The translations under genes and the position numbers were made by a program. Below are positions 20,162 through 44,507 of a stretch of DNA of 64,000 nt, piece after piece (the stretch's first letter is position 1; each line of letters begins with the position of its first letter). The stretch spans positions 124,001-188,000 of the forward strand of contig NZ_JAKXMK010000008.1 in the NCBI RefSeq assembly GCF_022524485.1, written 5' to 3'. A model generated the notes under the pieces. It made no database searches. It was not told the DNA's origin and worked only from the letters and a program-made list of their open reading frames with translations. The stretch is from Pseudonocardia alaniniphila. Its GTDB lineage: Bacteria; Actinomycetota; Actinomycetes; Mycobacteriales; Pseudonocardiaceae.

Positions 20162-23100
20162 GTGGGGCTGCACGTGCACAGGTCCGAGCGGGCCGACGCA
20201 CTGGCCGATGCGCTTGGTGACCTCCTCGCCCATCCGCTCGACGATCCGTTCGCCGACGAGGTCGTCGCGGTTCCGGCGAAGGGCATCGAGCGCTGGCTGG
20301 CGCAGCGGTTGTCGCACCGGCTGGGCGCGGCGGCGGGGCGGGGCGACGGTGTGTGCGCGGGGGTCGCGTTCCCGTCGCCGGCAGCAGTGGTCGCGGTGGC
20401 CATCGGGGGCGCCGTCGGCATCGACCCACGGGAGGACCCGTGGCGTCCGGAGCGGGCGGTGTGGCCACTGCTGGAGGTCATCGACGAGAGCGCGGGCGAG
20501 CCGTGGTGCGCGCCGCTGGGGGTCCACCTCCGCGACGGCGGATCCCAGCGCGGCCGTAGGCACGCCACGGCTCGCCACCTCGCCGATCTGTTCGCGTCCT
20601 ACGCGGCGGCCCGGCCCGACATGCTGGCCCGCTGGCAGGCGGGCGAGGGCGTCCCGGGCGAGCGGGCCGCCGATCTTGCGTGGCAGCCGGAGCTGTGGCG
20701 GCGGCTGCGGGAGCGGATCGGCGTCCCCGGCCCCGCCGAACGCGTCGGCGCCGCGTGCACGGCCCTGCGTGCGGATCCCGCGGCGGCGCCGCTGCCGCCA
20801 CGGCTGTCGCTGTTCGGCCCCACCCGGTTGCCGGCCGAGCACCTCGCCGTGATCGCCGCTCTCGCCGAGCACCGTGAGGTGCACCTCTGGCTCGCCCACC
20901 CCTCCCCCGCGCTCTGGAGCGCCGTCGCCCCCGTAGGCCACGTTCCGCTCCGGCGCGCCGACCCCACCGCGGCTCTGCCGCGGCATCCGCTGTTGTCGTC
21001 GCTCGGGCGCGACGTCCGTGAGCTCCAGGTCCGGCTTTCGGGGTCGGCCCCTGATCTCGTCGACCACCACCACCCGCTGCCCGACCCTCCCCCCACCCTG
21101 CTCGGCAGGCTGCAGCGCGACCTGAGGGACGACCAGCCACCCAGCGGTGATGCCCCGCTGCACCCGGCGGACCGCAGCATCCAGGTCCACTCCTGCCACG
21201 GCCCGGACCGGCAGGTGGAGGTGCTGCGCGAGATCGTCCTCGGGCTGCTCCACGACGACCCCACGCTCGAACCGCGCGATGTGCTCGTCATGTGCCCCGA
21301 CATCGAGACGTTCGCGCCGTTGATCTCCGCTGCCTTCGGGCTCGCCGAACCGGACGCCGCGGGCGCGCACACCCATCCCGGCCACCAGCTGCAGGTCCGG
21401 CTGGCCGACCGCGCGTTGCGGCAGGTCAACCCCCTGCTCGACACGGTTTCCCAGCTCCTCGAGCTCGCCGACGCCCGGCTCACCGCGTCCCAGGTGCTCG
21501 ACCTGCTGGGCTCCATCCCGGTGCGCCGCCGCTTCCGCCTCGACGACACCGACCTCGACCGGTTGCGCGAGCTCGTCGTCCGCTCCGGGGTGCGCTGGGG
21601 GCTCGACGGGCCCCACCGCGCTCCCTTCCATCTCGACGGGTTCGCGCAGAACACCTGGTCCGCCGGGCTCGACCGGCTGCTGCTGGGCGTCACGATGGCG
21701 GGCGGCTCCGGGGAGCAGGGGTGGCTCGGCACCGCGCTGCCGCTGGAGGAGGTCGACTCCGGCGACGTCGAGCGCATCGGGCGCCTGGCCGAGTTCGTCG
21801 ACCGGCTGGCCGCCACCCTGGCCCGGCTGGCGGGCGATCACACGCTCGACGAGTGGGTCACGGCGCTGGTCGCCGGGCTCGACGCACTCACCGACACCAC
21901 TACCACCGACGCCTGGCAGGCGGCTCAGGCCTGCGGCGAGCTGGCCGACGCCGCCCGTGCCGCCGGACCCCACGCCGCCACCGTCCCACTCGGGCTTGCC
22001 GACATCCGGGGGCTTCTCACGGAGCGGCTGCGCGGCCGGCCGACGCGCGCCAACTTCCGCACCGGCACGCTCACGGTCGCCACGCTCGTGCCGATGCGGT
22101 CGGTCCCGCACCGGGTGGTCTGCCTGCTCGGGCTCGACGACGGGGTGTTCCCCCGCGTCGGCGTCCCCGACGGCGACGACGTCCTCGCACGCGATCCCCT
22201 GGTGGGCGAGCGCGATCCCCGCAGCGAGGACCGCCAGCTGATGCTCGACGCGATCTGCGCGGCCACCGAGCATCTCGTCGTCGTGCACTCGGGGGCCGAC
22301 GAGCGCACAGGAGCCCGGCGCCCACCCGCGGTGCCGCTCGGGGAGCTGCTCGACACGATCGAGGCCACCGCCGGTCCCGCCGGTCGTCAGCACGTCATGG
22401 TGCGCCATCCGCTGCAGCCGTTCGACGCCCGCAACTTCACCCCGGGAGCGCTGACCACGCCCGGCCCGTTCAGCTTCGACCGCACCGAGCTGGCCGGAGC
22501 GCGGGCGGCAGCCGGCACGAAGGCGCCGCCCGCACCCTTCGTGCGGGGGCCGCTCCCGCCCGTCGAGCGGGAGGTCGTGGCGTTGGACGATCTCGTCGCG
22601 TTCCTGGAGCACCCGGTCAAGGAGTTCCTCCGGCAGCGGGTCGGGCTGTCGCTCTTCGCCGGGGAGGACGACCCGTCCGACGCGCTACCGGTGGATCTCG
22701 ACGGGCTGGCCACGTGGGCGATCGGCGACCGGCTGCTGCGTGACCGGCTCGCCGGCCACGATCTCGACCACTGCCGGCAGGCGGAGTGGCGGCGCGGGGA
22801 GCTGCCCCCGGGTGCGCTGGGCGACGCCGTGCTCCGCCGGGTGCTCGACGACGTCGAGCCGCTCGTGGCCGCCGCGGCGCCGCTCCTGGTGGGTGAGGCA
22901 GCGGATCGCGACGTGGACGTCGCGCTGCCCGGCGGCGTCCGCGTGGTGGGCACGCTCGGCGGACTCCACGGCACGGCGCTGGTGCGCGTCGAGTTCTCCC
23001 GGCTGGCGCCGAAGCAGCGCATGCGGGCGTGGGTCCGGCTCCTGGCGCTCACCGCGTCCAGCCGGGAGCCGTGGTGCGCGATCACGATCGGCCGGGGCAC

Positions 23101-23482
23101 GCGGTTCGGGCTGAGCAGGGCGAGCGCGGGCCCGCTCGATCCCGATCAGGCCACCGAGCTGCTCGCCGAACTGGTGGAGCTCCACCGTGCGGGCCTGCGG
23201 GAGCCGCTCCCGCTGCCCACCGTCGCGGGCCACACCTACGCCTCGGTCCGGCGCGGCGGTGCCGACGCCGAGGCGGCCCTCGACGAGGCGCTGCGGAAGT
23301 GGACCAACGGCGCGGGTGCCGAGCAGGCCGACGATGCGCACGTACGGGTCTGGGGGCGGGCGCCGGGGCCGGACGTGCTCGTCGGGCCGGGCGATCCCGG
23401 GAGCGAGCCCACCCGGTTCGGGGCGCTCGCCATGCGCCTGTGGGCACCCTTGCTGACGGCAGAGGACGTGGTACGGCTGTGA
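20162..23482 (+). CDS. recC: Exodeoxyribonuclease V subunit gamma (RecC)
   Basis: A 1106-residue RecC, the scaffold and Chi-recognition subunit of the RecBCD helicase-nuclease that processes double-strand ends. It has the family opening HVHRSERADALADALGDLL and PAKGIERWLAQRLSHRLG, and later HSCHGPDRQVEVLREIVL, VMCPDIETFAPLISAAFG and VLGL-type segments such as VVCLLGLDDGVFPR. As expected, the C-terminal half holds an inactivated nuclease-like fold. GTG 20162 is chosen for its GGAGGGGGG at good spacing; GTG 20153 would overlap that site. Its stop overlaps the recB GTG by four bases, so recC-recB-recD are translated as a coupled operon. Confidence 0.93.
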   Translation: MGLHVHRSERADALADALGDLLAHPLDDPFADEVVAVPAKGIERWLAQRLSHRLGAAAGRGDGVCAGVAFPSPAAVVAVAIGGAVGIDPREDPWRPERAVWPLLEVIDESAGEPWCAPLGVHLRDGGSQRGRRHATARHLADLFASYAAARPDMLARWQAGEGVPGERAADLAWQPELWRRLRERIGVPGPAERVGAACTALRADPAAAPLPPRLSLFGPTRLPAEHLAVIAALAEHREVHLWLAHPSPALWSAVAPVGHVPLRRADPTAALPRHPLLSSLGRDVRELQVRLSGSAPDLVDHHHPLPDPPPTLLGRLQRDLRDDQPPSGDAPLHPADRSIQVHSCHGPDRQVEVLREIVLGLLHDDPTLEPRDVLVMCPDIETFAPLISAAFGLAEPDAAGAHTHPGHQLQVRLADRALRQVNPLLDTVSQLLELADARLTASQVLDLLGSIPVRRRFRLDDTDLDRLRELVVRSGVRWGLDGPHRAPFHLDGFAQNTWSAGLDRLLLGVTMAGGSGEQGWLGTALPLEEVDSGDVERIGRLAEFVDRLAATLARLAGDHTLDEWVTALVAGLDALTDTTTTDAWQAAQACGELADAARAAGPHAATVPLGLADIRGLLTERLRGRPTRANFRTGTLTVATLVPMRSVPHRVVCLLGLDDGVFPRVGVPDGDDVLARDPLVGERDPRSEDRQLMLDAICAATEHLVVVHSGADERTGARRPPAVPLGELLDTIEATAGPAGRQHVMVRHPLQPFDARNFTPGALTTPGPFSFDRTELAGARAAAGTKAPPAPFVRGPLPPVEREVVALDDLVAFLEHPVKEFLRQRVGLSLFAGEDDPSDALPVDLDGLATWAIGDRLLRDRLAGHDLDHCRQAEWRRGELPPGALGDAVLRRVLDDVEPLVAAAAPLLVGEAADRDVDVALPGGVRVVGTLGGLHGTALVRVEFSRLAPKQRMRAWVRLLALTASSREPWCAITIGRGTRFGLSRASAGPLDPDQATELLAELVELHRAGLREPLPLPTVAGHTYASVRRGGADAEAALDEALRKWTNGAGAEQADDAHVRVWGRAPGPDVLVGPGDPGSEPTRFGALAMRLWAPLLTAEDVVRL

Positions 23483-26400
23483 CGACAACCATCGGTCGCA
23501 CCCCCGTACTCGCCCCGGCCTCGTTCGACGTCTGCGGTCCCCTGCCCACCGGCACCACGGTCCTCGAGGCGAGCGCCGGCACCGGCAAGACGTTCACGAT
23601 CGCCGCGCTCGCCGCCCGCTACGTCGCGGAGGGCCACGCCACGCTGCCCGAGCTGATGCTGGTCACGTTCGGCCGGGAGGCCAGCCAGGAGCTGCGCGAA
23701 CGGGTCCGTGAGCGGCTCGTGTCGGCCGAGCGGGCCTTGGCCGACCCGTCCGCGGCGCGCAGTGGTGACGACGAGGTGGTCCGGCTGCTGGCCGACGCCG
23801 CCGACCACGAGGTCGCGGCCCGCAGAGCCCGGCTCGCCCGCGCTCTGGCCCAGTTCGACGCCGCCACGATCGCCACCACCCACCAGTTCTGCCAGCAGAT
23901 GCTCGCCGGGCTGGGGGTCGCGGGCGACGGCGATCCGGACGCCGTGTTCGTCGACTCGATCGACGACCTGCTCACCGAGGTGGTCGACGACTTCTACGTG
24001 CGCAAGTACGGCGCGCACGCCGCAGGCACGCCCGCCTTCAGCCGGTCAGAGGCGCTCGTGCTGGCCCGCCACGCCGTGTACGACGGGCAGGCGCGGCTCG
24101 AGCCCCTCGACGCCACCCCGGGGAGCACAGCGCACGTCCGCCACCGCTTCGCCGTCGCGGTGCGGGGTGAGGTGGCCCGCCGCAAGCGGGCGCAGCGGAT
24201 CTACACCTACGACGACATGCTCACCCGGCTCGCCGACGCGCTGGCCGACCCTGCGCGGGGTGCGCCGCAGCGGCTGCGCGACCGGTACCGCGTCGTGCTC
24301 GTCGACGAGTTCCAGGACACCGACCCGGTGCAGTGGGACATCCTGCGCCGCGCCTTCCACGAGCACACCACGCTGGTGTTGATCGGCGACCCGAAACAGG
24401 CGATCTACGCCTTCCGTGGCGCCGACGTCGTCAGCTACCTCGACGCCACCGAGAGCGCACGTCAACACGCCACACTCGCCCGCAACTGGCGCAGCGACGC
24501 CTCGCTGCTCACCGCGCTCGACGTCGTGTTCGCGGGCGCGGCGCTGGGCGACCGGCGCATCACCGTGCATCCCGTCGAGGCCGCGCATCACGACCGGCAG
24601 CTGGCCGGAGCACCGGTCGACGCGCCGTTGCGGATCCGAGTGGTGTCCCGCGTCGGGCTGCCCCGGGCGCCCAAGCGCGACCTCGCCGTCGTCGGCCCGG
24701 CGCGCGACCTCGTCGCACGCGACGCCGCGGCCGACATCGCCGCGCTGCTGGCGAGCCCGGCCCGCGTCGCGGGCGAAGCGGTGGTGCCGGGCGACGTGGC
24801 CGTTCTGGTACGCACCAACGAGCAGGGTTCGCGGATTCGCGACGCCCTGGCCGCGGCGGGTGTCCCGGCCGTGCTCTCGGGCACGGCGAGCGTCTTCGGC
24901 ACCCCGATCGCCCGCGAGTGGCTCACCTTGCTCGAGGCGCTGGAGCAGCCGAGGGCGTTCCGCGCCCGCGCGGCTGCTCTCACCTGCTTCCTGGGCCACA
25001 CGGTCGAGGAGCTGTGCGGTCCAGGGGCCGACGATCTGCTCGACGCCCTCGGCGGCACGCTGCGCGCGTGGGCCGCCGTGCTCCACGACCGCGGCGTCGC
25101 GGCCCTGCTGGAGGCGGTCACCACCGCCACGGCGCTGCCCCGTCGCCTGCTCGCCACATCCGACGGCGAGCGTCGGCTCACCGACCTGCGCCACGTTGCG
25201 CAGGCTCTGCACGCGGCGGCCGTGGCCGAGCACCTCGGCCCGGCTGCGCTCACCGACTGGCTGCGCCACCGCATCTCCGACGCCGCGGAGGACGTCGGCG
25301 CGGAGCGCAGCAGGCGCCTGGAGTCCGACGCCGCCGCGGTGCAGATCATCACCATCCACCGCAGCAAGGGCTTGGAGTTCCCGATCGTCTACGTGCCGTT
25401 CGGGTGGGACCGCAACGTCCGCGACCCCGAGGTGCCGTTGCTGCACGACGAGTCGGGCGCCCGCGTGCTCGACGTCGGCGGCGAGACCGGCGAGGGGTGG
25501 AAGGAACGGTGCGCGCGGCATCGGCTCGAGGAGGCCGGGGAGGACCTGCGCCTGTTCTATGTGGCGCTCACGCGTGCGCGCTCCCAGGTGGTCACGTGGT
25601 GGGTGCCGGCCACCACCACCGCGACGTCGCCGGTGCACCGGCTGCTCATCGGGCGACCGGCCGAAGGCACCGACCCCGCTGAGGCCTACCGGGTGCCGCC
25701 CGACGCTGCGGCCCTGGCCGCGCTGCGCGAGCTGGCCCGCGCGGAGATCGCGGTCGAGGAGGTCGGGCTGCGGCCCGCCGCCGATTTCACCGCGGCCGGG
25801 TCCGAGCCGGGTGACCTGCGGGCGGCCGAGTTCGCGCGCCGGCTCGAGGGCGACTGGCGCCGCACCTCCTACAGCGCGCTCACGGCCACCGCGGGCCACG
25901 GTCCCGGGGTCGGCAGCGAGCCCGAAGAGCCCGGCACCGACGACGAGGGGAGCCCGGAGAGCGAGGAGGCGGACGGCGGCGGAACGGTCGGCGTGATCGG
26001 GGAGACAGACCAGCCCGCCGACGGCGAGGGCCTGGCGTCGCCGATGGGCGAGCTGCCGGTCGGTGCCGGGTTCGGCACCCTCGTGCATGCGATCTTCGAG
26101 GCGGCCGATCTCACGGCGGCCGACCTGCCGACCGAGCTCAGTGCCCACGCCCACGAGCAGCTCGCGTTGCACCCCACCCCCGGCGTCGATGCCGATGTGC
26201 TCGCCGCCGCGTTGCTGCCTGCGGCGCTCACGCCGATGGGGCCGCTCGCCGGTGGCCTCCGGCTCGCCGACATCGCCCCGCGCCACCGGCTCGCCGAGCT
26301 CGACTTCGAGCTCCCCCTCGCAGGCGGCGACGGGCCCGGCGCCGCCGTGCCGCTCGGTGCGGTCGCGCCGTTGCTGCGCCGCCACCTGGCGGCCGACGAC

Positions 26401-26862
26401 CCTCTGGTGGGCTACCCGGATGTCCTCGCCGGGCTTCCCGAACAGCAGTTGCGTGGCTACCTCACCGGGAGCATCGACGCCGTGCTCCGGCTGCCGGACG
26501 AGCGGTTCGCGGTGGTCGACTACAAGACCAACTGGCTGGGCCCGCTCGGGCCTGACGGCCGGGCGCCACTCACCTCCGCCCACTACACGCCAGCGCGTCT
26601 CGCCGACGCGATGATCGCGGCGCAGTACCCGCTGCAGGCGCTGCTGTACTCGGTCGCGCTGCACCGGTTCCTGCGCTGGCGACAGCCCGGTTACGAACCG
26701 GGGCGCCACCTGGGCGGCGTGCTCTACCTGTTCGTCCGCGGTATGTGCGGCGCCGACACCCCCGTGGTCGACGGTGTTCCGTGCGGGGTGTTCAGCTGGA
26801 ATCCGCCCGCGGCGCTGGTGGTGGAGCTCTCCGCGCTGCTCGACGGCGAGGTCTCGCGATGA
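23479..26862 (+). CDS. recB: Exodeoxyribonuclease V subunit beta (RecB)
   Basis: A 1127-residue SF1A helicase-nuclease, the 3'-5' motor and only nuclease of RecBCD. Walker A is EASAGTGKTFT (Lys at 37), Walker B LVDEFQDTDPVQW (about 275), motif III-IV GDPKQAIYAFRGAD, helicase motif V around IHRSKGLEFPIVYVP, motif VI VALTRARSQVV. The C-terminal nuclease domain keeps the catalytic pair in GSIDAVLRL and VVDYKTNW (about 1010-1018). An acidic, low-complexity linker (about 810-850) separates the helicase and nuclease parts. Start GTG 23479 overlaps recC; stop overlaps the recD ATG. Confidence 0.95.
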   Translation: MTTTIGRTPVLAPASFDVCGPLPTGTTVLEASAGTGKTFTIAALAARYVAEGHATLPELMLVTFGREASQELRERVRERLVSAERALADPSAARSGDDEVVRLLADAADHEVAARRARLARALAQFDAATIATTHQFCQQMLAGLGVAGDGDPDAVFVDSIDDLLTEVVDDFYVRKYGAHAAGTPAFSRSEALVLARHAVYDGQARLEPLDATPGSTAHVRHRFAVAVRGEVARRKRAQRIYTYDDMLTRLADALADPARGAPQRLRDRYRVVLVDEFQDTDPVQWDILRRAFHEHTTLVLIGDPKQAIYAFRGADVVSYLDATESARQHATLARNWRSDASLLTALDVVFAGAALGDRRITVHPVEAAHHDRQLAGAPVDAPLRIRVVSRVGLPRAPKRDLAVVGPARDLVARDAAADIAALLASPARVAGEAVVPGDVAVLVRTNEQGSRIRDALAAAGVPAVLSGTASVFGTPIAREWLTLLEALEQPRAFRARAAALTCFLGHTVEELCGPGADDLLDALGGTLRAWAAVLHDRGVAALLEAVTTATALPRRLLATSDGERRLTDLRHVAQALHAAAVAEHLGPAALTDWLRHRISDAAEDVGAERSRRLESDAAAVQIITIHRSKGLEFPIVYVPFGWDRNVRDPEVPLLHDESGARVLDVGGETGEGWKERCARHRLEEAGEDLRLFYVALTRARSQVVTWWVPATTTATSPVHRLLIGRPAEGTDPAEAYRVPPDAAALAALRELARAEIAVEEVGLRPAADFTAAGSEPGDLRAAEFARRLEGDWRRTSYSALTATAGHGPGVGSEPEEPGTDDEGSPESEEADGGGTVGVIGETDQPADGEGLASPMGELPVGAGFGTLVHAIFEAADLTAADLPTELSAHAHEQLALHPTPGVDADVLAAALLPAALTPMGPLAGGLRLADIAPRHRLAELDFELPLAGGDGPGAAVPLGAVAPLLRRHLAADDPLVGYPDVLAGLPEQQLRGYLTGSIDAVLRLPDERFAVVDYKTNWLGPLGPDGRAPLTSAHYTPARLADAMIAAQYPLQALLYSVALHRFLRWRQPGYEPGRHLGGVLYLFVRGMCGADTPVVDGVPCGVFSWNPPAALVVELSALLDGEVSR

Positions 26863-28763
26863 CCGGAGTGGCCGAGGCCCTCGCCGGGCCGACGTCCGCC
26901 GCGGCCGGACCCACGCGCGATGGTGCCGCCGCAGCCGCCGCACCGGTCGATCCGGGGGACATGCGCCTCGCCCACTCGGCCACCGGCCTGCTGGCCGCGT
27001 TCAACGCCGCGGGGGTGCTGGAGCCCTCCGACGTCCACGTCGCCACGAGGGTGGGGCGGCTCGGCGGTGAAGCGCGCGAGGAGGTGCTGCTCGCGGTGGC
27101 GCTGGCCGTGCGGGCGGTGCGGCAGGGCTCGGTGTGCGTCGACCTCGCCGACGTCAGCCGCACCGTGCTGGGCGAGGGCGACGAGCTCGTCGACGTGTCC
27201 GCCCTGCCCTGGCCGGAGCCCGCGGGCTGGCTCGCGATGTGCACGGCCGGACCGCTCGTCGCCGACGGGGCGGATGCGCCGCCCGGCCGGCCGCTGCGGG
27301 CGGTCGACGGGCTGCTCTACCTCGACCGCTACTGGCGCGAGGAGGAGCAGGTGCGGTGCTCGCTTGCTGAGCGGGCGGCAGCCGCCCCGCCGCAGGTCGA
27401 CCTGCCGAGGCTCGCCACCGGGCTCCACCGGCTCTTCCCGGCCGCCGGATCGGAGAAGCAGCGGCTCGCGTCGGCGGTGAGTGCGCTGCGCCGGGTCACC
27501 GTGCTGGCCGGTGGTCCCGGCACCGGCAAGACCACCACCGTGGCGCGGCTGCTGGCGCTGCTGCACGACCAGCCCGGGCCGCCACCCCGCGTCGCACTGG
27601 CCGCCCCCACCGGCAAAGCCGCGGCACGCCTGCAGGAGGCGGTGGCGGCGGAGCTTCCGGCGCAGCTGCGAGGGCGTGTGCCCGAGGCGGCCACTCTGCA
27701 CCGGCTGCTCGGGTGGCGGCCCGGCACCCGACGCTTCCGCTACGACCGCACCCAGCGGCTGCCGTTCGACGTGGTGGTCGTGGACGAGACGTCCATGGTG
27801 TCGCTCACGATGATGGCCCGGCTGCTCGAGGCCGTCCGGCCGCAGGCTCGGCTGGTGCTGGTCGGCGACCCCGATCAGCTCGCGTCCGTCGAGGCCGGAG
27901 CCGTGCTGGGCGATCTCGCCCGCGCTCCCGGCCGTCCCGAGACCGCCCTCGATGCGGCGCTGGCCGAACTCGGCCTGCCCGGCGGGGTGGTGAACGGTGT
28001 CGTCACGCTCGACCACGTCTGGCGTTTCGGCGGCGCGATCGCCGAGTTCGCCAGGGCGGTGCAGGCAGGCGACGCCGATGCCGCGGTCGCCCTGCTGCGC
28101 AGTGGCCGCCCGGATCTCGCCTTCGCGGCGGCACCCGAGGCGGTGCGCGACGACGTCGTGCAGGCAGGGCGTGAGCTGGCCAGGGCGGCGGCCGCGGGTG
28201 AGGTCGAGACCGCCCTCGCCGCGCTCGAACAGCACCGGGTGCTGTGTGCCCACCGGCAGGGCCCCTACGGGGTGGCGCGGTGGACCATGGAGATCGAGCG
28301 CTGGCTGGGCAGCCCCCACGCCGCACGCGCAGGCGCCCCGCGCGGGAGCGCTCCGGCCGGCCCCTGGTACCCCGGCCGCCCGGTGCTGGTCACCGCCAAC
28401 GACTACGACACCGGCCTCTTCAACGGCGACACGGGCGTGGTCGTGCAACAGCCCGAAGGGCTGCGGGTCGCCTTCGCGCGGGGCGGGCCGCCCACGCTGC
28501 ACGCGCCGGCGCGGCTGTCGGAGGTGGCCACGGTGCACGCCATGACGGTCCACCGCGGGCAGGGCAGCCAGTTCCGCCGGGTCACCGTGGTGCTGCCCCC
28601 GGCCGAGTCACCCCTGCTCACCCGGGAGCTGCTCTACACCGCCGTCACCAGGGCGCGGGAGTTCGTTCGGGTGGTCGGCACGGAGGAAGCCGTCCGCGCA
28701 GCGGTGCAGCGCCCGGTCGGGCGTGCGAGCGGGCTGCGACGCCGGCTCGGCCTGGAGAGCTGA
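26859..28763 (+). CDS. recD: Exodeoxyribonuclease V subunit alpha (RecD)
   Basis: A 634-residue SF1B 5'-3' helicase, the fast motor of RecBCD. Walker A is AGGPGTGKTTTVAR (about residues 217-230), Walker B VVDETSMVSL, followed by LVGDPDQLASVEAGAVLGDL and the C-terminal motif VI region LLYTAVTRAREFVRVVG. The N-terminal 200 residues are the RecD interaction domain, and the C-terminal UvrD-like 2B segment VHAMTVHRGQGSQFRRV is intact. Its ATG overlaps the recB stop (ATGA). Completes a full-length, apparently functional RecBCD. Confidence 0.95.
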   Translation: MTGVAEALAGPTSAAAGPTRDGAAAAAAPVDPGDMRLAHSATGLLAAFNAAGVLEPSDVHVATRVGRLGGEAREEVLLAVALAVRAVRQGSVCVDLADVSRTVLGEGDELVDVSALPWPEPAGWLAMCTAGPLVADGADAPPGRPLRAVDGLLYLDRYWREEEQVRCSLAERAAAAPPQVDLPRLATGLHRLFPAAGSEKQRLASAVSALRRVTVLAGGPGTGKTTTVARLLALLHDQPGPPPRVALAAPTGKAAARLQEAVAAELPAQLRGRVPEAATLHRLLGWRPGTRRFRYDRTQRLPFDVVVVDETSMVSLTMMARLLEAVRPQARLVLVGDPDQLASVEAGAVLGDLARAPGRPETALDAALAELGLPGGVVNGVVTLDHVWRFGGAIAEFARAVQAGDADAAVALLRSGRPDLAFAAAPEAVRDDVVQAGRELARAAAAGEVETALAALEQHRVLCAHRQGPYGVARWTMEIERWLGSPHAARAGAPRGSAPAGPWYPGRPVLVTANDYDTGLFNGDTGVVVQQPEGLRVAFARGGPPTLHAPARLSEVATVHAMTVHRGQGSQFRRVTVVLPPAESPLLTRELLYTAVTRAREFVRVVGTEEAVRAAVQRPVGRASGLRRRLGLES

Positions 28764-28913
28764 ACAAGCCTGCGGTGACGGGGCGAGGTGATCTCGTCCA
28801 CACTCGGTGGCCCCGGCGCCGCCGGTGCAGTCGGCTTGAGAGGCAAGGGATTCGTAGCCCTCCGAACGACCGTCCGGACGCCGTATCTGCCTGCACGCCT
28901 TGGAGTGCCGCTC

Positions 28914-30122: not shown

Positions 30123-30191
30123 ACTCCGGCCGATTCGATCACGTTCGCGCGGCGGGACGGCGCGGCGGAGATCGGCAGCACTCCCCAGCCC

Positions 30192-30401
30192 TGATCATGT
30201 TCCGGTGACGGACAAGCACGAGACTCCGGCCCGAGCGGACCTCGGTGCGCAGCAGCACCCGAGCACCCACGGTGATCGGCCGCGCAGTCCGGTCCCTGAT
30301 CCCGCTCAGGTGACGGACAAGCACGAGACGCCGACCCGAGCGGACGCCGTGGCAACGCCGCGGCATCCGGCCGCTCCCGGTGATCGGGCGCGTGCCGCTG
30401 C
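30192..30401 (+). repeat. 105-bp imperfect tandem duplication spanning the start of the next gene
   Basis: Two adjacent units, 30192-30296 and 30297-30401, share the start-like GGTGACGGACAAGCACGAGAC and a CCGAGCGGAC block, with a second conserved GGTGATCGG near the end of each. The period is 105 bp, a multiple of three, so the reading frame is kept and the protein shows the repeat TDKHETP-RAD at residues 2 and 37. Confidence 0.75.
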
Positions 30402-31182: not shown

Positions 31183-31205
31183 GCTTCTGGTGCGGCGCCG
31201 GGCCG

Positions 31206-36729: not shown

Positions 36730-36838
36730 GAGGTGGTCATCGTAGGCGCGCGCTCCGTCAGGATCGGGGACGCACGCCGCAAGCGATCCCAGAGCCGCTC
36801 GTCCGACGGGTCGACTCCCCCGATGCGAGCATGGGCAC

Positions 36839-37390
36839 GTGAAGAAGGACGCCGGCACGGTCGTCGCGGTCAGTCGCAGCTCGGTGCACGAGTTCAGCAA
36901 GCCGGTCGAGGACAGCATCGAGCTGCTGGCCGGCCTCGGCGTCCGTGACGACGCGCACGCAGGCGTCACCGTGCAGCACCGCTCGCGCGTTGCGGTGGAC
37001 CCGACCCAGCCGAACCTGCGGCAGGTCCACCTCATCCACGCCGAGCTGCACGACGAGCTGCGGAGCAGGGGCTTCGACGTTTCCCCTGGCCAGTTGGGCG
37101 AGAACATCACCGTTCGCGGTCTCGATCTCCTCGGGCTCCCCCGCGGCACCCGGCTGCACATCGGCGCGGAGGCGATCGTGGAGGTCACCGGCCTGCGCAA
37201 CCCCTGTGCCCAGATCAACGGCCTGCAGGACGGGCTGATGAAGGCCGTGCTGGACCGCGACGCGCAGGGCCGGCTGGTCCGCAAGGCGGGGGTCATGGGC
37301 GTCGTCATCGCCGGTGGTCACGTCCGTCCCGGCGAAGACATCCAGGTGGAACTCCCGACGGGACGACCGGTAGCCCTGTCCCGCGTCTGA
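36839..37390 (+). CDS. MOSC domain protein
   Basis: A 183-residue stand-alone MOSC (molybdenum cofactor sulfurase C-terminal) domain. Visible family elements are the GVRDDAHAG segment, GQLGENITVRGLDLLGLP and the conserved cysteine in VEVTGLRNPCAQINGL (about residue 122). Related proteins move sulfur or reduce N-hydroxylated substrates using bound Moco (YiiM class). Start GTG 36839. The Mo hydroxylase operon at 49953-53772 is 12 kb away, and any link is speculative. Confidence 0.88.
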   Translation: MKKDAGTVVAVSRSSVHEFSKPVEDSIELLAGLGVRDDAHAGVTVQHRSRVAVDPTQPNLRQVHLIHAELHDELRSRGFDVSPGQLGENITVRGLDLLGLPRGTRLHIGAEAIVEVTGLRNPCAQINGLQDGLMKAVLDRDAQGRLVRKAGVMGVVIAGGHVRPGEDIQVELPTGRPVALSRV

Positions 37391-37426
37391 CCCCACCGCT
37401 CGGACGAGCGCCCAACCGCACCGGTG

Positions 37427-38419
37427 TCAGCGGCGCCGGAACCGGTGGGACAGCTCCGGGTCGTCCTCCCACCACAGGCGCGGCCGCTCCGCTTCCTGCG
37501 GGCCGTCCGGCTCGGCCGTCGCGGCGGCCCTCTCGGCGTCGCGTGCGTCGAGTTCGGCGTCGATCACCACGGCCTTCTGATGGTCCTCGCGCGTCATCCG
37601 CGCGAACACCACGCCGATGAAGGGCAGCCCCACCACGTCGCCGCCGATCCACAGCGCCCCGGCCCCGAGCCACTGGTCGACCTGAATGCTCGGCCCCCAG
37701 TCGCGCGCGAGCGCGGTGTAGTACCCGGCCGCGACCAGCGGGCCCAGCCAGAGCACCACGCCGAGCACGGCGTCACCGATCATCTCCACCACGGTGATCG
37801 CGAGCGTCACGCCGTAGGGGTCCGTGCGGGGGGCCGGGTCGATGCGAAAGCGCGTCCAGAAGTAGACGAACCCGGTGGTGGCCAGCACCAGCCCTGCCAC
37901 CGCGCTCGCCACGGCGCTGCGCAGGGTCATCTCGTAGAGCGGGCTGAGGTACAGCACCAACAGGGGCAGGGTGAGTACGACCGTCACGACCAGGGGAAAC
38001 GTCAGCAGCCGGGCCGCTTTGCCGTGCAGCAGCCGCGACAACCGGGCGCGCGCCGGAACTGGCAGTTGGTCACGCAGCAGCGTGAACGGCGCTCCCATCG
38101 CCAGCAACATCGGCACCACCATCAGCAGCACGATGTTCTGCACGGCACGCACCCAGAACAGCGTGTCGTCATACACACCGAGGAACGACATCCCGACGAG
38201 CGCGATGATCACCACTCCGGCGGCGAAGCTCAGGGTCCGCCCGCGCGGCCACGCTCCCGCCGACGCGGGCCGACGGCGCAACCCCAGTCCGTAGCCGCCG
38301 CCGAGAACGGCCACCGCTGCGGCGACGCCGGGCGTGAAGCGCCAGGACGTGAACGTCCGTACCAGCGTCAACGGCGGCGGACCGGCATACGCCAGCGCCG
38401 CGACCACTCCGGAAGCCAC
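37427..38419 (-). CDS. CtaG/Caa3-type cytochrome c oxidase assembly protein
   Basis: A 330-residue membrane protein with about nine predicted helices, in the CtaG_Caa3 family that helps assemble the CuA/CuB centres of aa3 or caa3 oxidases. Typical segments are SWRFTPGVAAAVAVLGG at the start, FWVRAVQNIVLLMVVPMLLAMGAP, YLSPLYEMTLRS, and the C-terminal GDVVGLPFIGVVFARMTR. The last 50 residues are charged and cytoplasmic. Actinomycete copies often occur away from oxidase genes, as here. Confidence 0.85.
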   Translation of the reverse strand: MASGVVAALAYAGPPPLTLVRTFTSWRFTPGVAAAVAVLGGGYGLGLRRRPASAGAWPRGRTLSFAAGVVIIALVGMSFLGVYDDTLFWVRAVQNIVLLMVVPMLLAMGAPFTLLRDQLPVPARARLSRLLHGKAARLLTFPLVVTVVLTLPLLVLYLSPLYEMTLRSAVASAVAGLVLATTGFVYFWTRFRIDPAPRTDPYGVTLAITVVEMIGDAVLGVVLWLGPLVAAGYYTALARDWGPSIQVDQWLGAGALWIGGDVVGLPFIGVVFARMTREDHQKAVVIDAELDARDAERAAATAEPDGPQEAERPRLWWEDDPELSHRFRRR

Positions 38420-38499
38420 GCCCCGACGCTACGCCGGGGTGCGGAGGCACCAGCGCCGCCGAAGCCGGACGAACGGCCCGCCCGTCGCGTCGGTGACAA

Positions 38500-38973
38500 C
38501 TAGGCGATGCCGGCCGCGTGATGTGAGGTCGGAGTCTCCGGCTCGGCGGGCACGGGGGCGTCGGCGCGGCGTGCGGCGATCACCGCGATGACGAACAGCC
38601 CGATCGCCACGACGCCGTGCAGTACCCCCAGCCCGGCGGCCGCGCTGCCGAAGATGCCCAGCAGCACCTGGACGACGACCGTGACCACGGTGATCGCGGC
38701 CCACAGCACGCCGCCCGGCACCTTTGCGAAGAAGGAGGCGACCAGCAGCAGCACCGCGATCACCGGCACGATCATCTGCCCGTTGACCCCGTGCACCGTG
38801 ATTCCCTCGGCCCCGGTGTAGGTCGCCGTGTGGTTCCGGATGGCGGCCGCATCCAGCACGCCACCGTCGGCGATCCACTTCCTCAACCCGAAGAAGGCGA
38901 ACGCGATCAACGCGGTCTGGATGACGACCTCGAGCGCCACCAGGTAGGCGAGAACGCGATAGACGGACCTCAT
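38500..38973 (-). CDS. Small four-helix membrane protein (paralogue A)
   Basis: A 157-residue integral membrane protein with four predicted helices, of unknown function. The N-terminus MRSVYRVLAYLVALEVVIQ and the loop GLRKWIADGGVLD are shared with the protein at 41046-41540, at 29 identities in the first 41 residues. After helix 1 there is an extracellular-looking loop with NHTATYTG, then MIVPVIAVLLLVASFFAKVP and two more helices. ATG 38973 has AAGGAG upstream. The pair flanks an acyl-CoA synthetase gene. Confidence 0.75.
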   Translation of the reverse strand: MRSVYRVLAYLVALEVVIQTALIAFAFFGLRKWIADGGVLDAAAIRNHTATYTGAEGITVHGVNGQMIVPVIAVLLLVASFFAKVPGGVLWAAITVVTVVVQVLLGIFGSAAAGLGVLHGVVAIGLFVIAVIAARRADAPVPAEPETPTSHHAAGIA

Positions 38974-39498
38974 GCACAACTCCTTGCCGCTGAGCGGATT
39001 GTGATCGACGGCGACGCCGGCGCCATTGCCCAGAATGGGCGTATCCCCCCCGATGTGCACAATTCTCGGCGGTTGTACCGGAATCTGCACTGCCCGCGCA
39101 CTTCAGACGCGGAACCGCACCAGCGCGGCCTTCGCGGCGCCACACTACCGCCATCGACGCGGTTAGTTCGCCGGCCTTGCGCCGACGCCTCATCCGGACG
39201 AACTCGGCCCATCTCCCGAGGTCGGAGCCACCCCAGCGGCGATCTTCGAATTCGGACGTTCTGCACACCCGGCCCGATGCGTCGATCATTTCCGACGGTG
39301 AAGTGATCGCCGACACTTCCGACTGCACCACCGGCCGATCCGCTGCTACATTTTTGACCGTCATAACTGACTGTGAAACAGTCGTCGGGCGATCTCGAAA
39401 TGTTCCGCACCGGTGCGGATGAATCCGAAAGCACAAGAGTCGATCGGCACCGCGCCGAGAGCGGCGGCGGCCGGCTTTCGACCGCGATGGAGGAGCAC
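38974..39498. other. 525-bp intergenic region between divergent genes
   Basis: Between paralogue A (minus) and the acyl-CoA synthetase (plus). It is less GC-rich near 39300-39420 and contains the 15-bp palindrome listed separately. I see no gene with normal codon use in it. Confidence 0.6.
39369..39383. promoter_or_regulatory. TetR-like palindrome upstream of acyl-CoA synthetase
   Basis: GACTGTGAAACAGTC is a perfect 6-3-6 inverted repeat in an AT-richer patch 116 bp before the synthetase start. Size and symmetry fit a TetR or GntR-class operator such as those controlling fatty-acid activation genes. Confidence 0.45.
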
Positions 39499-41034
39499 GT
39501 GCCCAGTGCCGACAGCCCCACGAGCGTGACCCGACTGCTGCAGCACTGGGCGGTCACGCAGCCCGTCACGGTCGCACTGCGCTTCGAGGACCGGAGCTGG
39601 ACCTGGGCCGAGCTGCTCGACCGGGTCCGTCACCTGGCCGGTGCGCTCAGGGAAGCGGGGATCGGCCCCGGCGACAGGATCGCGTTCCTGGGAAGGAACC
39701 ACCCGGCGGCCTTCGAGCTCGTGCTGGCCGGGGCCCGGATCGGGGCGACGACGATCGTCGTCAACTACCGGCTCGCACCGGCCGAGATCGACTACGTCGT
39801 GCGGGACGCCGAAGCGGCGATCGTCGTGGTCCGCCCGGAGTTCGCTCCCGTGCTCGCGGATCTCGGATACCACCGCCGGGTCGTGGCGGTCGGCCCGGAG
39901 TACGAGGAGTGGCTCGCGTCGGCGGTACCGCCCGGTGATCCGCGGGACGCCGACGCCGACGAGCCGTTCCTCCAGCTCTACACGTCAGGCACGACCGGCG
40001 TCCCCAAGGGCGCCATGCTGACCCACCGCAACCTCGCGGCCCACAGCGAGGCCGTCTCCACGCACATCGGCCTGACACGCACGAGCGTGAACCTCGTTCC
40101 GATGCCGATGTACCACATCGGCGGGCTGGCCTGGGCACTTCTGGCGCTGCACCGTGGGGCGACGCTGATCCTCGTCCCCGATGTCGTGCCCGCCCAGTTG
40201 GTCGACATGATCGAGACCTTCCGTGTCACACACGCCTTCGTGGTGCCGACCGTTCTCGCCGCACTGGTGGAGCTCCCCGATCTCGCCGAGCGGGATCTCT
40301 CCTCGCTGCGAGGCCTCGCCTACGGCGGCTCACCGATACCGCTCCCGGTGCTTCGCCGCCTGCTGGCCACGACCGATGCCGGCCTCTACCAGGTCTACGG
40401 AGCCACCGAGGTCTCCGGCGTCGCCACCGTGCTGGACTCCACCGACCATCGCGCACCGATCGACGACCGGCACCTGAGCTCCGCAGGCCGGCCCCTGGCG
40501 GGCATCGAGGTGGCGATCACAGCGGGCGCCACCGGTGAGGCGGTCCCGGCCGGGGAGATCGGTGAGATCCTCCTGCGGGGCGAGCAGGTGATGGCCGGCT
40601 ACTGGAAACAACCGGCCGCCACGACGGACGCCCGGCTTCCCGGCGGCTGGCTCCGTACCGGCGACGTCGGCTACCTCGACGACGACGGCTATCTGTTCAT
40701 CGTCGACCGGATCAAGGACATGATCATCAGCGGTGGGGAGAACATCTACGCCGCCGAGGTGGAGCGCGTGCTGGGAGAACATCCCGCAGTGAGCGAGGTT
40801 GCGGTGATCGGCGTGCCCGACGAGAAGTGGGGCGAGGTCCCGAAGGCAGTGGTCGTTCCTGTCGGACCGCGCCACCCGGACGCCACCGAGCTGCTCCGGT
40901 TCTGTCGTGGGCAGCTCGCCGGATACAAATGCCCGAAATCCCTGGACTTCGCGTCCACCCTGCCGCGCAACGGGACGGGGAAGATCCTCAAGCGAGAGCT
41001 GCGCGAGCAGTACCGGCGCGGTGCCACGAACTGA
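39499..41034 (+). CDS. AMP-dependent acyl-CoA synthetase
   Basis: A 511-residue ANL-superfamily ligase that adenylates a carboxylic acid and transfers it to CoA. The ATP loop LYTSGTTGVPKGAM (about 157-170), substrate motif YGATEVSG, hinge motif GWLRTGDVGYLDDDGY and IKDMIISGGENIYAAEVE, and the catalytic lysine in LPRNGTGKILKREL at the C-terminus are all intact. GTG 39499 has GGAGG five bases upstream inside the alternative start ATG 39487. Acyl substrate unknown: medium- or long-chain fatty acid or aryl acid. It lies between two paralogous membrane-protein genes on the other strand. Confidence 0.9.
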   Translation: MPSADSPTSVTRLLQHWAVTQPVTVALRFEDRSWTWAELLDRVRHLAGALREAGIGPGDRIAFLGRNHPAAFELVLAGARIGATTIVVNYRLAPAEIDYVVRDAEAAIVVVRPEFAPVLADLGYHRRVVAVGPEYEEWLASAVPPGDPRDADADEPFLQLYTSGTTGVPKGAMLTHRNLAAHSEAVSTHIGLTRTSVNLVPMPMYHIGGLAWALLALHRGATLILVPDVVPAQLVDMIETFRVTHAFVVPTVLAALVELPDLAERDLSSLRGLAYGGSPIPLPVLRRLLATTDAGLYQVYGATEVSGVATVLDSTDHRAPIDDRHLSSAGRPLAGIEVAITAGATGEAVPAGEIGEILLRGEQVMAGYWKQPAATTDARLPGGWLRTGDVGYLDDDGYLFIVDRIKDMIISGGENIYAAEVERVLGEHPAVSEVAVIGVPDEKWGEVPKAVVVPVGPRHPDATELLRFCRGQLAGYKCPKSLDFASTLPRNGTGKILKRELREQYRRGATN

Positions 41035-41045
41035 ACGCCGCCTGC

Positions 41046-41540
41046 CTAGCGCGTGGATCTGATCACCCCGGATCGGCCCAGGTCGGCGGCGTCACGAGAC
41101 GCCCGTAACGGCCCGGCACCGGACACATCCGCACTGCGTGCCGCGACCAGCGCGAAGGCGAACAGCAGGATCCCGTTGATCCCGTGCAGGATCCCCAGGG
41201 CGGGCGCATCGAGCGCGAACAGGCCCAACAGCACCTGGACGACGACCGAGAGCAGGACGATCACGGCCCACATCACGGCCTTCGGCACCTTCGCGCAGAA
41301 CGCGGAGATCAGGAGCAGTACGGCGATGGCCGGGACGATCACCTGCTCGTTCGTGGCGTGGAGCCGGAATCCGACGACCTCGCCGAACCCCTCCGCATGG
41401 TTCTGGACGATGGTCTCGTCCAGGACGCCGCCCTCGTCGATCCAGTGCCTCAACCCGAATACGGCGAAGGTGATCATCGCGCCCTGGACCAGGACCTCGA
41501 GCGCGATCACGTAGGCCAGGACTCGATAGACAGTTCTCAT
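41046..41540 (-). CDS. Small four-helix membrane protein (paralogue B)
   Basis: A 164-residue membrane protein starting MRTVYRVLAYVIALEVLVQ, clearly the paralogue of the gene at 38500-38973. GLRHWIDEGGVLDETIVQNHAEG, then VIVPAIAVLLLISAFCAKVP and VVQVLLGLFALDAPALGILHG match the sister protein helix by helix; the polar tails differ. It ends 11 bp from the convergent acyl-CoA synthetase. Function unknown. Confidence 0.75.
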   Translation of the reverse strand: MRTVYRVLAYVIALEVLVQGAMITFAVFGLRHWIDEGGVLDETIVQNHAEGFGEVVGFRLHATNEQVIVPAIAVLLLISAFCAKVPKAVMWAVIVLLSVVVQVLLGLFALDAPALGILHGINGILLFAFALVAARSADVSGAGPLRASRDAADLGRSGVIRSTR

Positions 41541-41850
41541 GCGCAGACCCCGATGCCGAACCGGTTGATGATCGGATGTCGAGCCCGCGCCGCTGCGCCG
41601 TCGTCCGGAAGACCGACAATTCCGCCGGTCCGCGTTATTCGGCAGGCCCCCGACACCACCGCCGGCCACGAGGCTCGCTCCAGGAGCCGCGCCACTGCAG
41701 TTCCCCCCGCAGCCTAGTCGCCACCGACCCGACCGAGGGACCGCGGAACCGGTTTGCCTGCTTTTCGATATTCCTTCAGAACGAACCATGCGCCCTGATC
41801 GAGCGGCCCGCAACAGAGATTCCGGACACTGTCGACGAAATCGCTCGGGA
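41541..41850. other. 310-bp intergenic region
   Basis: Between paralogue B and the peptidase E gene, both on the minus strand. It should hold paralogue B's promoter. I find no gene, strong hairpin or repeat. Confidence 0.5.
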
Positions 41851-42582
41851 TCAGAGCAACCGCGGAGGAATCCGCGTCTCATTCACCGTTCCGTCGGACG
41901 CCCGCTCCACGCGGTAGGCGTACACGCCGGGTCGATCCGCCACCGCCTCGACGAACTCGGTGCCTCGATAGTGGATGCCGACGCCGTTGTCCGTGGCGTA
42001 CCCGGCGCCGAGAGTGCCGTTCCCGATCAGATCGTGAAAGAGCGGCCGGCGCCGTTTCTCGACGTCGTAGTGCACCCCGTTCGAATACGGGAGAAAGCCC
42101 AGGGCATCGGTAAGGGGCTCGAGCTGCGGCCCGTACGAATCGGTGGGGCCGCCCTCGTGCCAGCAGATCGAACCGGCCGAGACCCCGCCCAGCACCACCC
42201 CGGCCTCCCAGCATTCCCGCAGGATCCGGTCCAGCCCGTGCAGCCGCCAGACCGCGAGCAGGTTGGCGGTGCTTCCGCCGCCGACCCAGATGACGTCCTG
42301 GGAGAGCAGGTGCGCCCGCACGTCCTCGACGTTCGGCATCGCGAACAGGGCCAGGTGGGACGTCTGCACGTCGTGATCGGCGAAGGCGGCGTAGAAGGTG
42401 GCGAGATAGGTGACGGAGTCGCCGGTGGCGGTGCCGATGAAGCACAGCTTCGGACGCTCGGACGCCCGCGCCAACTCGAAGGCGAAGGGGAAGATCGGAC
42501 CGGGTTCGTAGTCGATCTCGTTCCGGTCGCGGAAGGCGAAGCCCATCGAGGTCGCGAGGATCGTGGGAGCGTCAGCGGTCAT
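41851..42582 (-). CDS. Peptidase E (S51 family)
   Basis: A 243-residue serine peptidase of the PepE/cyanophycinase class that cleaves Asp-Xaa dipeptides or related isoaspartyl bonds. The family motifs are VIWVGGGSTANLLAVW (about 98-113) and the nucleophile elbow GGVSAGSICWHEGG (about 131-144, catalytic Ser in SAGS), then YSNGVHYDVEKRRRPLF with the histidine of the triad. Length matches E. coli PepE (229) plus a short tail. It lies 21 bp downstream of the HerA-like gene on the same strand and may be co-transcribed. Confidence 0.88.
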   Translation of the reverse strand: MTADAPTILATSMGFAFRDRNEIDYEPGPIFPFAFELARASERPKLCFIGTATGDSVTYLATFYAAFADHDVQTSHLALFAMPNVEDVRAHLLSQDVIWVGGGSTANLLAVWRLHGLDRILRECWEAGVVLGGVSAGSICWHEGGPTDSYGPQLEPLTDALGFLPYSNGVHYDVEKRRRPLFHDLIGNGTLGAGYATDNGVGIHYRGTEFVEAVADRPGVYAYRVERASDGTVNETRIPPRLL

Positions 42583-42603
42583 GCGCTGATCGAATCATCT
42601 CTC

Positions 42604-44340
42604 TCAGAACGGTGCGTCGTCTTCGTCGTCCGGCGCCACCGGGAGCCGTGCGAAGGGGTCGCGCCGCACCGCGCCGTTGGTGGTGGCGCCGGCGCGTTCC
42701 GGGTCGCCCGCCGACTCCGAGAGCCGGGTGGCCCATGCCGGGAACGGGAACTCGACGGCCAGCGGCACCGGGATCTCCGGCTGCGAGACGAACATCGTGC
42801 CGGGCTTCGCGATCGTGGCGCGCTGGCGCTGCGACGCCGGCAGGAAGCCGTACTCGGGCCGCCCGGCCTCGGCGGGGTCGAGCCTGCCGACCACCTTCAC
42901 CGAGGAGTTCGAGACGATCCGCCGCTCCACCTCGCTCGCCGTCTGCTGGGCACCGATCAGGATGATCCCCAGCGACCGGCCGCGCTCGGCGATGTCGAGC
43001 AGCACCTCCTTGATCGGGCTCGATCCCTCACGCGGCGCGTACTTGTTCAGCTCGTCGATCATCGTGAAGAGCAGCCCGCCCGGTCCGGCGGCCTCCTTGC
43101 GGGCTGTCTCGGACGCGAGCACCACGCCGACGACGAACCGCTGCGCGCGCTCGGGGAGGTTGTGCAGGTCGACCACCGTGACCTGGTGCGCGTCGGTGCT
43201 CACGCGGCGGCCGGGTGTGTCGGTGAGGTCGCCGCGGACGATCGTGCGCAGCGGCTTGAGGCTCGAGCGCAGCCGGCGCAGGAACGCGTTGACCGTGCCG
43301 GTGCCGGTGACGGGGCCTGCCCAGTCGCGGCGGTCGTCCTCGTCGGTGAGCCGGTCAGAGACGAACTCGACGAGGTCGTCGTAGGTGCGCAGCACCTTGC
43401 CGCCCACCGCGACGGCGCCGTCGCCGACGGCTTCCGCCTCGCGCCGCAGCCGCGCGGCGACCTGGTGGATGACCATCGTGTACTGGTTGCGCTCGTCCTC
43501 CGCGTCGGCGAAGACGTAGGGCAGCAACTCCTCGGCGCAGAACTCGGCGAGCGTCCACCAGAAGGCGGTGACGCCGCTGGTGCGGCCGGTGACGTGCGGG
43601 CGTCCGGAGAGGTCGTCGGGGGTGGGCGGGGCGAAGAAGCCCGCGGACGCGAACGGCGCCGCGAGCAGGCCGAGCTTGGCGTAGGCCGCGCGCAGGTCGT
43701 CGTCGAGACGCCGGTTGGCCTGGTCGAGGAACAGCAGGTCCTCGCCCTTCACGCTGAACACCAGCGCCTTGGCGTTGACCGAGCGCCGCCCCAGCACTCC
43801 GCTGCGGAAGATCGAGTACAGCAGGAAGAGGGCGAAGCTCGTCTTCGTCGCGACGCCGGAGATGCCGCTGATGGAGACGTGGCCGCCGCGGGTGCCGTCG
43901 AGGAACTCCAGGTTGACGTAGATCGGCTCGCCGTCACGTCCGAGACCGACGGGCACCTTGAGGCTCATCTGGTCGAAGTACAGCGCCCGCGCGCGCTCCT
44001 CGCCGGTGGCGCGCTGGGCGAGCGATCCGGGAGTGGGCGGGACATAGCACTCCGGCTCCACCCGCGTGGTGGTGACCTCCGCGACCTCCTGCACGTGAGC
44101 GGGCAGCACACCGTCGGCGATGAGGAAGACGTCGGAGCCGAAGGTGGCTCCCTCGTGGCGGGCGCGGACCTCGGTGACCACCCCGGACGTCAGCACCGGA
44201 CCGATCCCCGGCACGGGACGGACGGTGACCACGACGTCGTCGAGCTGCAGGTACTGCTCGGGTGCGAGCGCCACGCTGAACTGGAGCGGGGTGGAGTCCT
44301 CGGTGCCGACGACGCGGCCGACAGGCGCTTCCTCGGACAC
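42604..44340 (-). CDS. HerA-like hexameric ATPase
   Basis: A 578-residue FtsK/HerA-superfamily motor. An N-terminal beta-barrel HAS-like domain (about 8-100) precedes the RecA-like domain. The P-loop reads SGISGVATKTSFA (residues 158-170): the usual Gly-Lys is Thr-Lys (TKTS). Walker B is LLFTMIDELNKYAP (about 423-436), followed by a sensor/arginine-finger segment SLGIILIGAQQTASEVERRI typical of HerA. HerA translocates on duplex DNA and drives NurA in end resection; a NurA-like gene lies 10 kb away next to sbcCD. GTG 44340 has GAGGAGG upstream. The alternative is a VirB4/DUF87 ATPase of other function. Confidence 0.8.
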   Translation of the reverse strand: MSEEAPVGRVVGTEDSTPLQFSVALAPEQYLQLDDVVVTVRPVPGIGPVLTSGVVTEVRARHEGATFGSDVFLIADGVLPAHVQEVAEVTTTRVEPECYVPPTPGSLAQRATGEERARALYFDQMSLKVPVGLGRDGEPIYVNLEFLDGTRGGHVSISGISGVATKTSFALFLLYSIFRSGVLGRRSVNAKALVFSVKGEDLLFLDQANRRLDDDLRAAYAKLGLLAAPFASAGFFAPPTPDDLSGRPHVTGRTSGVTAFWWTLAEFCAEELLPYVFADAEDERNQYTMVIHQVAARLRREAEAVGDGAVAVGGKVLRTYDDLVEFVSDRLTDEDDRRDWAGPVTGTGTVNAFLRRLRSSLKPLRTIVRGDLTDTPGRRVSTDAHQVTVVDLHNLPERAQRFVVGVVLASETARKEAAGPGGLLFTMIDELNKYAPREGSSPIKEVLLDIAERGRSLGIILIGAQQTASEVERRIVSNSSVKVVGRLDPAEAGRPEYGFLPASQRQRATIAKPGTMFVSQPEIPVPLAVEFPFPAWATRLSESAGDPERAGATTNGAVRRDPFARLPVAPDDEDDAPF

Positions 44341-44507
44341 GGGTGCCTCCTCATCACTGCTGGTGGGACCCTAACCGGCCACCACGGCTCCACGACCGGG
44401 GGGCCGTGACCGTGAGCAGCCGATCGGATGACGCATTGTGTCGGGGACCGGTGGTTGGCTGTGCGCCGTCCCACTGTCCTCGCGTTCCGCTCCACTGGAG
44501 GCGCGCC

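Follow-up and report, generated by a model that had tools for sequence, protein, structure and literature searches.

Does a stretch of actinobacterial DNA that encodes RecBCD also encode a second machine for processing DNA ends, built on the plan of an archaeal operon? The archaeal HerA-Mre11-Rad50-NurA operon, best known from heat-loving species, is textbook knowledge, with the gene order herA-mre11-rad50-nurA, and the question is raised here by a 64,000-nucleotide stretch (the window) of contig NZ_JAKXMK010000008.1 of Pseudonocardia alaniniphila, whose source genome comprises 9.4 Mb in 115 contigs. A first-pass annotation, made from the letters of the sequence, had reported RecBCD, SbcCD with a NurA-like gene, and a HerA-like motor in this DNA. 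We conclude that two systems for processing DNA ends are probably encoded in this region, RecBCD and a HerA-SbcD-SbcC-NurA unit that would be the counterpart of the archaeal operon and offer a parallel route of resection. The first-pass annotation had correctly placed the HerA gene, while its membership of the SbcD-SbcC-NurA cluster went unrecognized: although moved away from the other three, herA opens a cluster of four genes, herA-sbcD-sbcC-nurA.

The four proteins and their genes

The first gene of the cluster, herA (42604..44340, minus strand), encodes a 578-aa protein with no Pfam match at E ≤ 0.1 and with chance-level NCBIfam matches only (best E = 0.013). On their own, Pfam and NCBIfam could neither identify HerA nor place NurA beyond doubt, and family profiles were required for both. 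A profile built from 18 HerA family members matched the HerA protein of Deinococcus radiodurans (drHerA) over its full length, N-terminal barrel included (positions 4-548 against drHerA 10-603, E = 1.4e-191), which bears out the HerA-like motor of the first-pass annotation; every other HerA-like PDB entry matched this profile weakly (best 1.2e-4, with one "DNA helicase" at 0.22). The nucleotide-binding loop, GISGVATKTS (residues 159-168, 43837..43866, minus strand), contains K166 and T167, and its GxSGVATKT pattern occurs in 40 of 40 aligned family members as well as in drHerA. Residues K175, T176, D220, D487, and E488 of drHerA align with invariant K166, T167, D201, D429, and E430; the Walker B Asp-Glu pair and the catalytic acid are thus present besides the nucleotide-binding Lys and Thr. 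In drHerA, K175 and T176 contact nucleotide and Mg. The spacing of the loop deviates from the textbook GxxxxGK[ST], and this may partly explain why this HerA family escapes general domain libraries. Judged by the sequence match, which is decisive, the 578-aa protein is HerA.

The last gene, nurA (31206..32210, minus strand), encodes a 334-aa protein that exceeds the Pfam NurA cut-off marginally (21.3 bits vs. 21), and the same model matches 13 of 34 NurA family members at E ≤ 0.01. A Pfam NurA search over the whole genome returned nothing at E ≤ 1, though the window gene passes by hmmscan, and we take this miss as a limit of sensitivity. Searched against the PDB, a 34-row family profile matched D. 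radiodurans NurA (drNurA) at E = 2.5e-38 and T. maritima 1zup at E = 1.7e-4; the best PDB matches of HerA and NurA are chains of one solved complex, 7f6d. An AlphaFold2 model built from 33 of the 34 alignment rows (predicted local distance difference test, pLDDT, 89.4; predicted template modeling score, pTM, 0.87) matched solved NurA structures first in Foldseek, the best distinct folds being 7f6d_G (1.2e-18), 1zup (3.9e-14), and S. solfataricus NurA 2ygk (6.2e-6), with template modeling (TM) scores on the query of 0.64, 0.60, and 0.40, respectively, i.e., a moderate whole-chain overlap. Residues D57, K199, and R289 are invariant in the 34-row alignment and, by numbering counted by hand on the drNurA alignment, correspond to D53, K201, and R309, which drNurA needs for catalysis (PMC9960219). 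Because family profile and fold comparison agree where Pfam alone is marginal, the assignment of the predicted 334-aa protein as NurA is firm, and both the profile search and the modeled fold uphold the first-pass label.

Between them lie sbcD and sbcC. The Mre11-like sbcD (35542..36729, minus strand) matches TIGR00619 at 3.7e-55 (187.4 bits vs. a cut-off of 77.65) and encodes the only SbcD found in the genome at E ≤ 0.001. Its open reading frame (ORF) of 588 aa reaches 37308, but the family match starts at residue 194, so that the gene spans approximately 35542-36729; the gene positions given in the first-pass annotation otherwise stand, with this upstream extension removed. The Rad50-like sbcC (32207..35542, minus strand) carries a Walker A motif, a CPVC hook at residue 523, and an LSGG signature, and matches the bacterial family TIGR00618 at 2.4e-68 vs. 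1.1e-13 for the best archaeal Rad50 model. These values bear on the idea that the operon was recently transferred from archaea, which the shared set of four functions would suggest. The proteins appear to be of bacterial type, since SbcC prefers the bacterial model so clearly and HerA and NurA find their best matches in the Deinococcus proteins, other HerA-like PDB entries being weak; on that ground the transfer is disfavored, and we regard it as highly improbable.

The stop of sbcD overlaps the start of sbcC by 1 base and the stop of sbcC overlaps the start of nurA by 4 bases, all on the minus strand, so the three genes very likely form one transcript, as the overlapping operon of the first-pass annotation implied. 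The four genes are linked on one strand in the window, though herA lies 5.9 kb away from sbcD. The intervening insertion (36730..42603, genes on both strands) is outside the machine; by Pfam it encodes an AMP-binding ligase (plus strand), DUF6220-like and peptidase S51 proteins (minus strand), and others. Given this gap and its opposite-strand gene, it is unlikely that herA shares a transcript with sbcD-sbcC-nurA in the window. In most relatives read, the herA-sbcD gap is smaller, absent, or otherwise filled; the two genes abut in many of them, and intergenic gaps are often a few bases or overlaps. The gap was at most 200 bases in 37 of 52 phylum genomes measured. Among 38 genus genomes in which both genes share a contig, it ranged from 3 bases to 11 kb, which makes a secondary origin of the window's insertion probable. 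Pseudonocardia insertions at this spot span 0 to 11 kb and differ in content (window 36730-42603; loci L067-L085), as if the spot tolerates cargo in this genus. An 873-aa frame opposite herA (41788-44409, plus strand) has no Pfam or NCBIfam match and is likely a shadow ORF of high-GC DNA.

Linkage and joint presence across genomes

The HerA and NurA genes co-occur across Actinomycetota. Co-occurrence and the NurA fold were the two points on which the first-pass annotation said that it could be refuted, and it withstood both. In an order-level sample, NurA was found in 12 of 61 genomes, and a HerA search of 40 of these (the 12 NurA-positives included) gave strong HerA matches in the same 12, plus weak ones in two more genomes (G016 and G060). 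A phylum-wide draw of 296 genomes contained strong HerA matches in 56, strong NurA matches in 54, both in 54, and neither in 240, so that HerA occurred alone in two (G125 and G244) and NurA alone in none. These counts leave out weak matches (HerA in G071, G086, G181, and G277; NurA in G086 and G170), with which they become 60 for HerA, 56 for NurA, and 55 for both. Fisher values for such counts assume that related genomes are independent and serve as description only. In 49 of the 54 genomes the two genes share a contig and a strand and lie no more than 20 kb apart; in the other five they are on different contigs. Two gene orders were found, nurA lying downstream in 22 genomes (order A, as in the window) and directly upstream of herA in 27 (order B). 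In 52 of 56 genomes SbcD was located no more than 20 kb downstream of HerA, on the same strand; in three of the other four it was on another contig, and for G186 no SbcD match was listed. Nineteen genomes were chosen by hand, not drawn, for detailed reading, and all four genes were clustered in every one of them (10 with one order and nine with the other). The proposal of a bacterial set matching Mre11-Rad50-HerA-NurA is thus well supported.

Individually named loci were the best 80 of 571 candidates and so are biased toward near relatives; within them the closest relatives of the window HerA were from Pseudonocardia, at 95% identity. All four genes were present in 57 of these 80 loci, with the order HerA-SbcD-SbcC-NurA in 57 of 57. 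Of the 23 incomplete loci, 21 stop at the locus edge, leaving L075, which lacks SbcD over a distance of 10 kb, and L083, whose last 1.1 kb contain no NurA. In 17 of the 80 the contig ends inside sbcC (L071, L073, L079, L084, L085, L087, L094, L107, L113, L114, L118, L121, L122, L124, L133, L135, and L146), and surveys based on draft genomes therefore undercount the complete cluster.

Trees of the four proteins were built from 32-33 loci. In the HerA tree the two gene orders form a clean split (support 0.936), which recurs without support for SbcD (0.344) and NurA (0.0); SbcC follows it inexactly. Some genomes carry two sets, one per gene order, as judged by HerA, NurA, and SbcD (G334 on contig C1, at 526-536 kb and 330-334 kb; G355 on contigs C116 and C65). 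The second HerA in these two-set genomes is ∼43-49% identical to that of the window. A third, distant HerA (32-33% identity) lies beside a weak NurA match in G196 (C15:13773-16809) and G086 (C39:55150-57393), and in G196 it is adjoined by SbcD.

Within the genus, 60 genomes were compared. HerA was found in 40, a strong SbcD in 40 (39 shared), and NurA in 37. Presence or absence of HerA and strong SbcD agreed in 58 of the 60, and the two exceptions, G405 with HerA alone and G351 with SbcD alone, are both fragmented assemblies. As a candidate for a substitute SbcCD where the cluster is absent, a distant SbcD-like gene occurs in 15 of 19 cluster-negative genus genomes (E = 3.6e-12 to 2.6e-16). 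Five loci with such a gene (L190-L194; four from cluster-negative genomes and one from a cluster-positive genome) gave no SbcC, HerA, or NurA profile match at E ≤ 1e-3, and the candidate was not retained.

This agreement bears on the reading that HerA-NurA and SbcCD are neighbors through shared damage-response regulation only and act separately, SbcCD on hairpins and HerA-NurA elsewhere. In Deinococcus, herA-nurA lies apart from the Mre11-Rad50 homologs (PMC8708640), and the spread of herA-sbcD distances in the genus means that co-transcription of all four genes is not needed. Shared regulation alone nevertheless seems to us a doubtful explanation, in view of the matching presence of HerA and SbcD just described, of a linkage that spans two gene orders and many families, and of the binding of Sulfolobus HerA to the Rad50-Mre11 complex (PMC2288612).

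RecC, RecB, and RecD carry their Pfam domains, which confirms the complete RecBCD of the first-pass annotation, and recC-recB-recD on the plus strand faces sbcD-sbcC-nurA on the minus strand, where HerA is encoded as well. The recC gene (20162..23482, plus strand) matches Exonuc_V_gamma (4.6e-69) and RecC_C (1.9e-55); the Pfam scan used the longest ORF, from 19967, and the start at 20162 is an in-frame GTG taken from the first-pass annotation. The recB gene (23479..26862, plus strand; UvrD-helicase 3e-48, UvrD_C, and PDDEXK_1 4.1e-5) has a proposed GTG start at 23479 that overlaps the recC stop. For recD (26745..28763, plus strand; RecD_N 8.3e-14 and AAA_30 7.3e-33, with Walker A at residue 256), the coordinates are those of the longest ORF, and the real start may be downstream.

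RecC was present in 53 of the 60 genus genomes, comprising 34 of 40 with HerA and 19 of 20 without it, so presence of the four genes does not follow that of RecBCD. NurA and RecC occur together in 32 genus genomes. In 17 of them, RecC lies 8-13 kb from nurA, convergently, which is why the first-pass annotation saw RecBCD next door; it is farther away on the same contig in six and on another contig in nine (RecC positions of 25 genomes went into this count, and the other seven have the genes on different contigs). Across the phylum draw, RecC was found in 19 of 56 HerA-positive and 39 of 240 HerA-negative genomes, leaving 37 HerA-positive genomes without RecC. Of the 19 with HerA and RecC, a distance of 15 kb or less between RecC and the cluster is found in the window's genome alone; RecC shares the contig at a distance of 25 kb to 2 Mb in eight of the others and is on another contig in 10. 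These positions led us to reject RecBCD linkage as a general trait. Proximity to RecBCD is mainly a trait of the genus, and "next to RecBCD" stands for those 17 of 32 Pseudonocardia genomes and fails phylum-wide.

Proposed function and the case for defense

We propose that SbcCD, being of the Mre11-Rad50 type, would bind and trim or cut blocked or folded DNA ends, much as Mre11-Rad50 proteins recognize and clip ends. A HerA hexamer would then pull the duplex into a NurA dimer, which would digest the 5′ strand and leave a 3′ tail for RecA, and RecBCD would serve as a separate route in the same cell. The Deinococcus drNurA-HerA complex digests the 5′ strand as HerA moves the duplex, and loss of nurA or herA in D. 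radiodurans lowers intermolecular recombination tenfold (PMC5448004). We advance more tentatively, as a serious possibility, that SbcCD hands ends to HerA-NurA in a sizeable part of the actinobacteria, in a unit inherited and lost as one that acts parallel to RecBCD or replaces it. If true, bacterial SbcCD would gain a role in recombinational resection, beyond hairpin removal.

A number of observations weigh against this proposal. Contamination of the genome is estimated at 7.29%, and an opposite-strand gene sits between herA and sbcD in the window. SbcC reaches 231 bits to TIGR00618, its best family, yet remains below the cut-off of 478.5. The set is dispensable, as HerA has no match in 20 of the 60 genus genomes. 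Under some DNA damage, D. radiodurans and T. thermophilus that have lost HerA-NurA are affected mildly or are even protected: radioresistance of Deinococcus is barely altered, and in Thermus hepA was important for UV survival in one study (PMC5448004), whereas another found UV resistance. Lastly, the authors of a 2026 study on HerA-NurA of T. kodakarensis dispute that the pair takes part in resection and suggest that it destroys DNA as an antiviral measure.

That suggestion leads to the main rival explanation, a cluster devoted mainly to DNA-destroying defense, in which incoming DNA of linear or unusual form would be degraded by SbcCD and HerA-NurA, in the manner of HerA-SIR2, HerA-DUF4297, and TdpAB. 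Besides the antiviral role suggested by the T. kodakarensis authors, the uneven distribution within the genus (40 of 60 genomes) fits such a function, and a TdpAB chain (8wfd_G, E = 1e-5) is the fifth row of the NurA fold search, where true NurAs match better. PADLOC, a library of defense models, returned matches for HerA (mad8, 7.4e-10; HerA, 5.4e-5), SbcC (mad3, 1.2e-21; LmuB, 6.8e-14; and weaker ones), and SbcD (an effector model, 1.8e-4; PDC-S60, 9.4e-4). The matches of SbcC and SbcD are, however, partial and stem from shared ATPase or phosphoesterase folds, and for NurA the PADLOC models gave nothing at E ≤ 0.001. Neither a SIR2 nor a DUF4297 partner was found among 17 window ORFs searched with Pfam and nine searched with PADLOC. 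In 18 Micromonospora loci, the DNA 3′ of nurA is common, with 298 of 306 ordered pairs aligning over at least 25% of 3 kb (upstream DNA less so, 142 of 306), and the cluster therefore occupies a fixed place in that genus. Viral contigs scanned with the window NurA gave no relative, a single-protein query that reaches close relatives only. Taken together, we consider a primarily defensive role unlikely and retain end processing parallel to RecBCD as the preferred interpretation.

Comparison with known systems

A review states that actinobacteria have HerA and NurA homologs (PMC8708640); in the open full-text literature, as far as its excerpts go, we found no account of an actinobacterial four-gene cluster. 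Two recent papers describe bacterial NurA-HerA as limited to few bacteria, one of the two with reference to bacteria that lack RecBCD. The published tie to RecBCD-less bacteria fails here, given that RecC co-occurs in HerA-positive genomes: the pair, with SbcCD, is found in about a fifth of the Actinomycetota genomes sampled (54 of 296), whether RecC is present or absent. Cooperation of HerA-NurA with Mre11-Rad50 at DNA ends is disputed, the 2026 archaeal study doubting it and the Deinococcus genes being unclustered. Presence of the unit varies within a single genus, which offers natural controls and non-hyperthermophilic hosts for testing the archaeal question.

HerA-type defense pairs and TdpAB combine a HerA-fold motor with a nuclease, as the window does, but their nuclease partners differ. 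To our knowledge, these systems lack SbcCD. The nearest solved relatives are those of the D. radiodurans NurA-HerA complex (PDB 7f6d), whose nucleotide loop and catalytic residues are the same; that pair differs in standing apart from the Mre11-Rad50 homologs and in belonging to a phylum without RecBCD. A bacterial cluster is already in print for Oceanithermus profundus, in which sbcD and sbcC lie downstream of hepA (PMC5448004). The same source states that nurA is upstream of hepA in Thermus, which, if so in Oceanithermus, corresponds to order B; the report concerns one organism, whereas the window has order A, with nurA last.

The closest parallel remains the archaeal mre11 operon of Sulfolobus and Pyrococcus, in which herA, mre11, rad50, and nurA are clustered (PMC4351679, PMC8708640) and which, like the window cluster, brings the four functions together. 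In S. islandicus all four genes are essential, whereas the window-type cluster is absent from one third of the genus. The window proteins also differ from those of the archaeal operon in being of bacterial type, as far as their sequences tell, and in co-existing with RecBCD. What appears to be new here is the combination: proteins of bacterial type, arranged much as in archaea, in a cluster that is widespread among Actinomycetota and often found alongside RecBCD.

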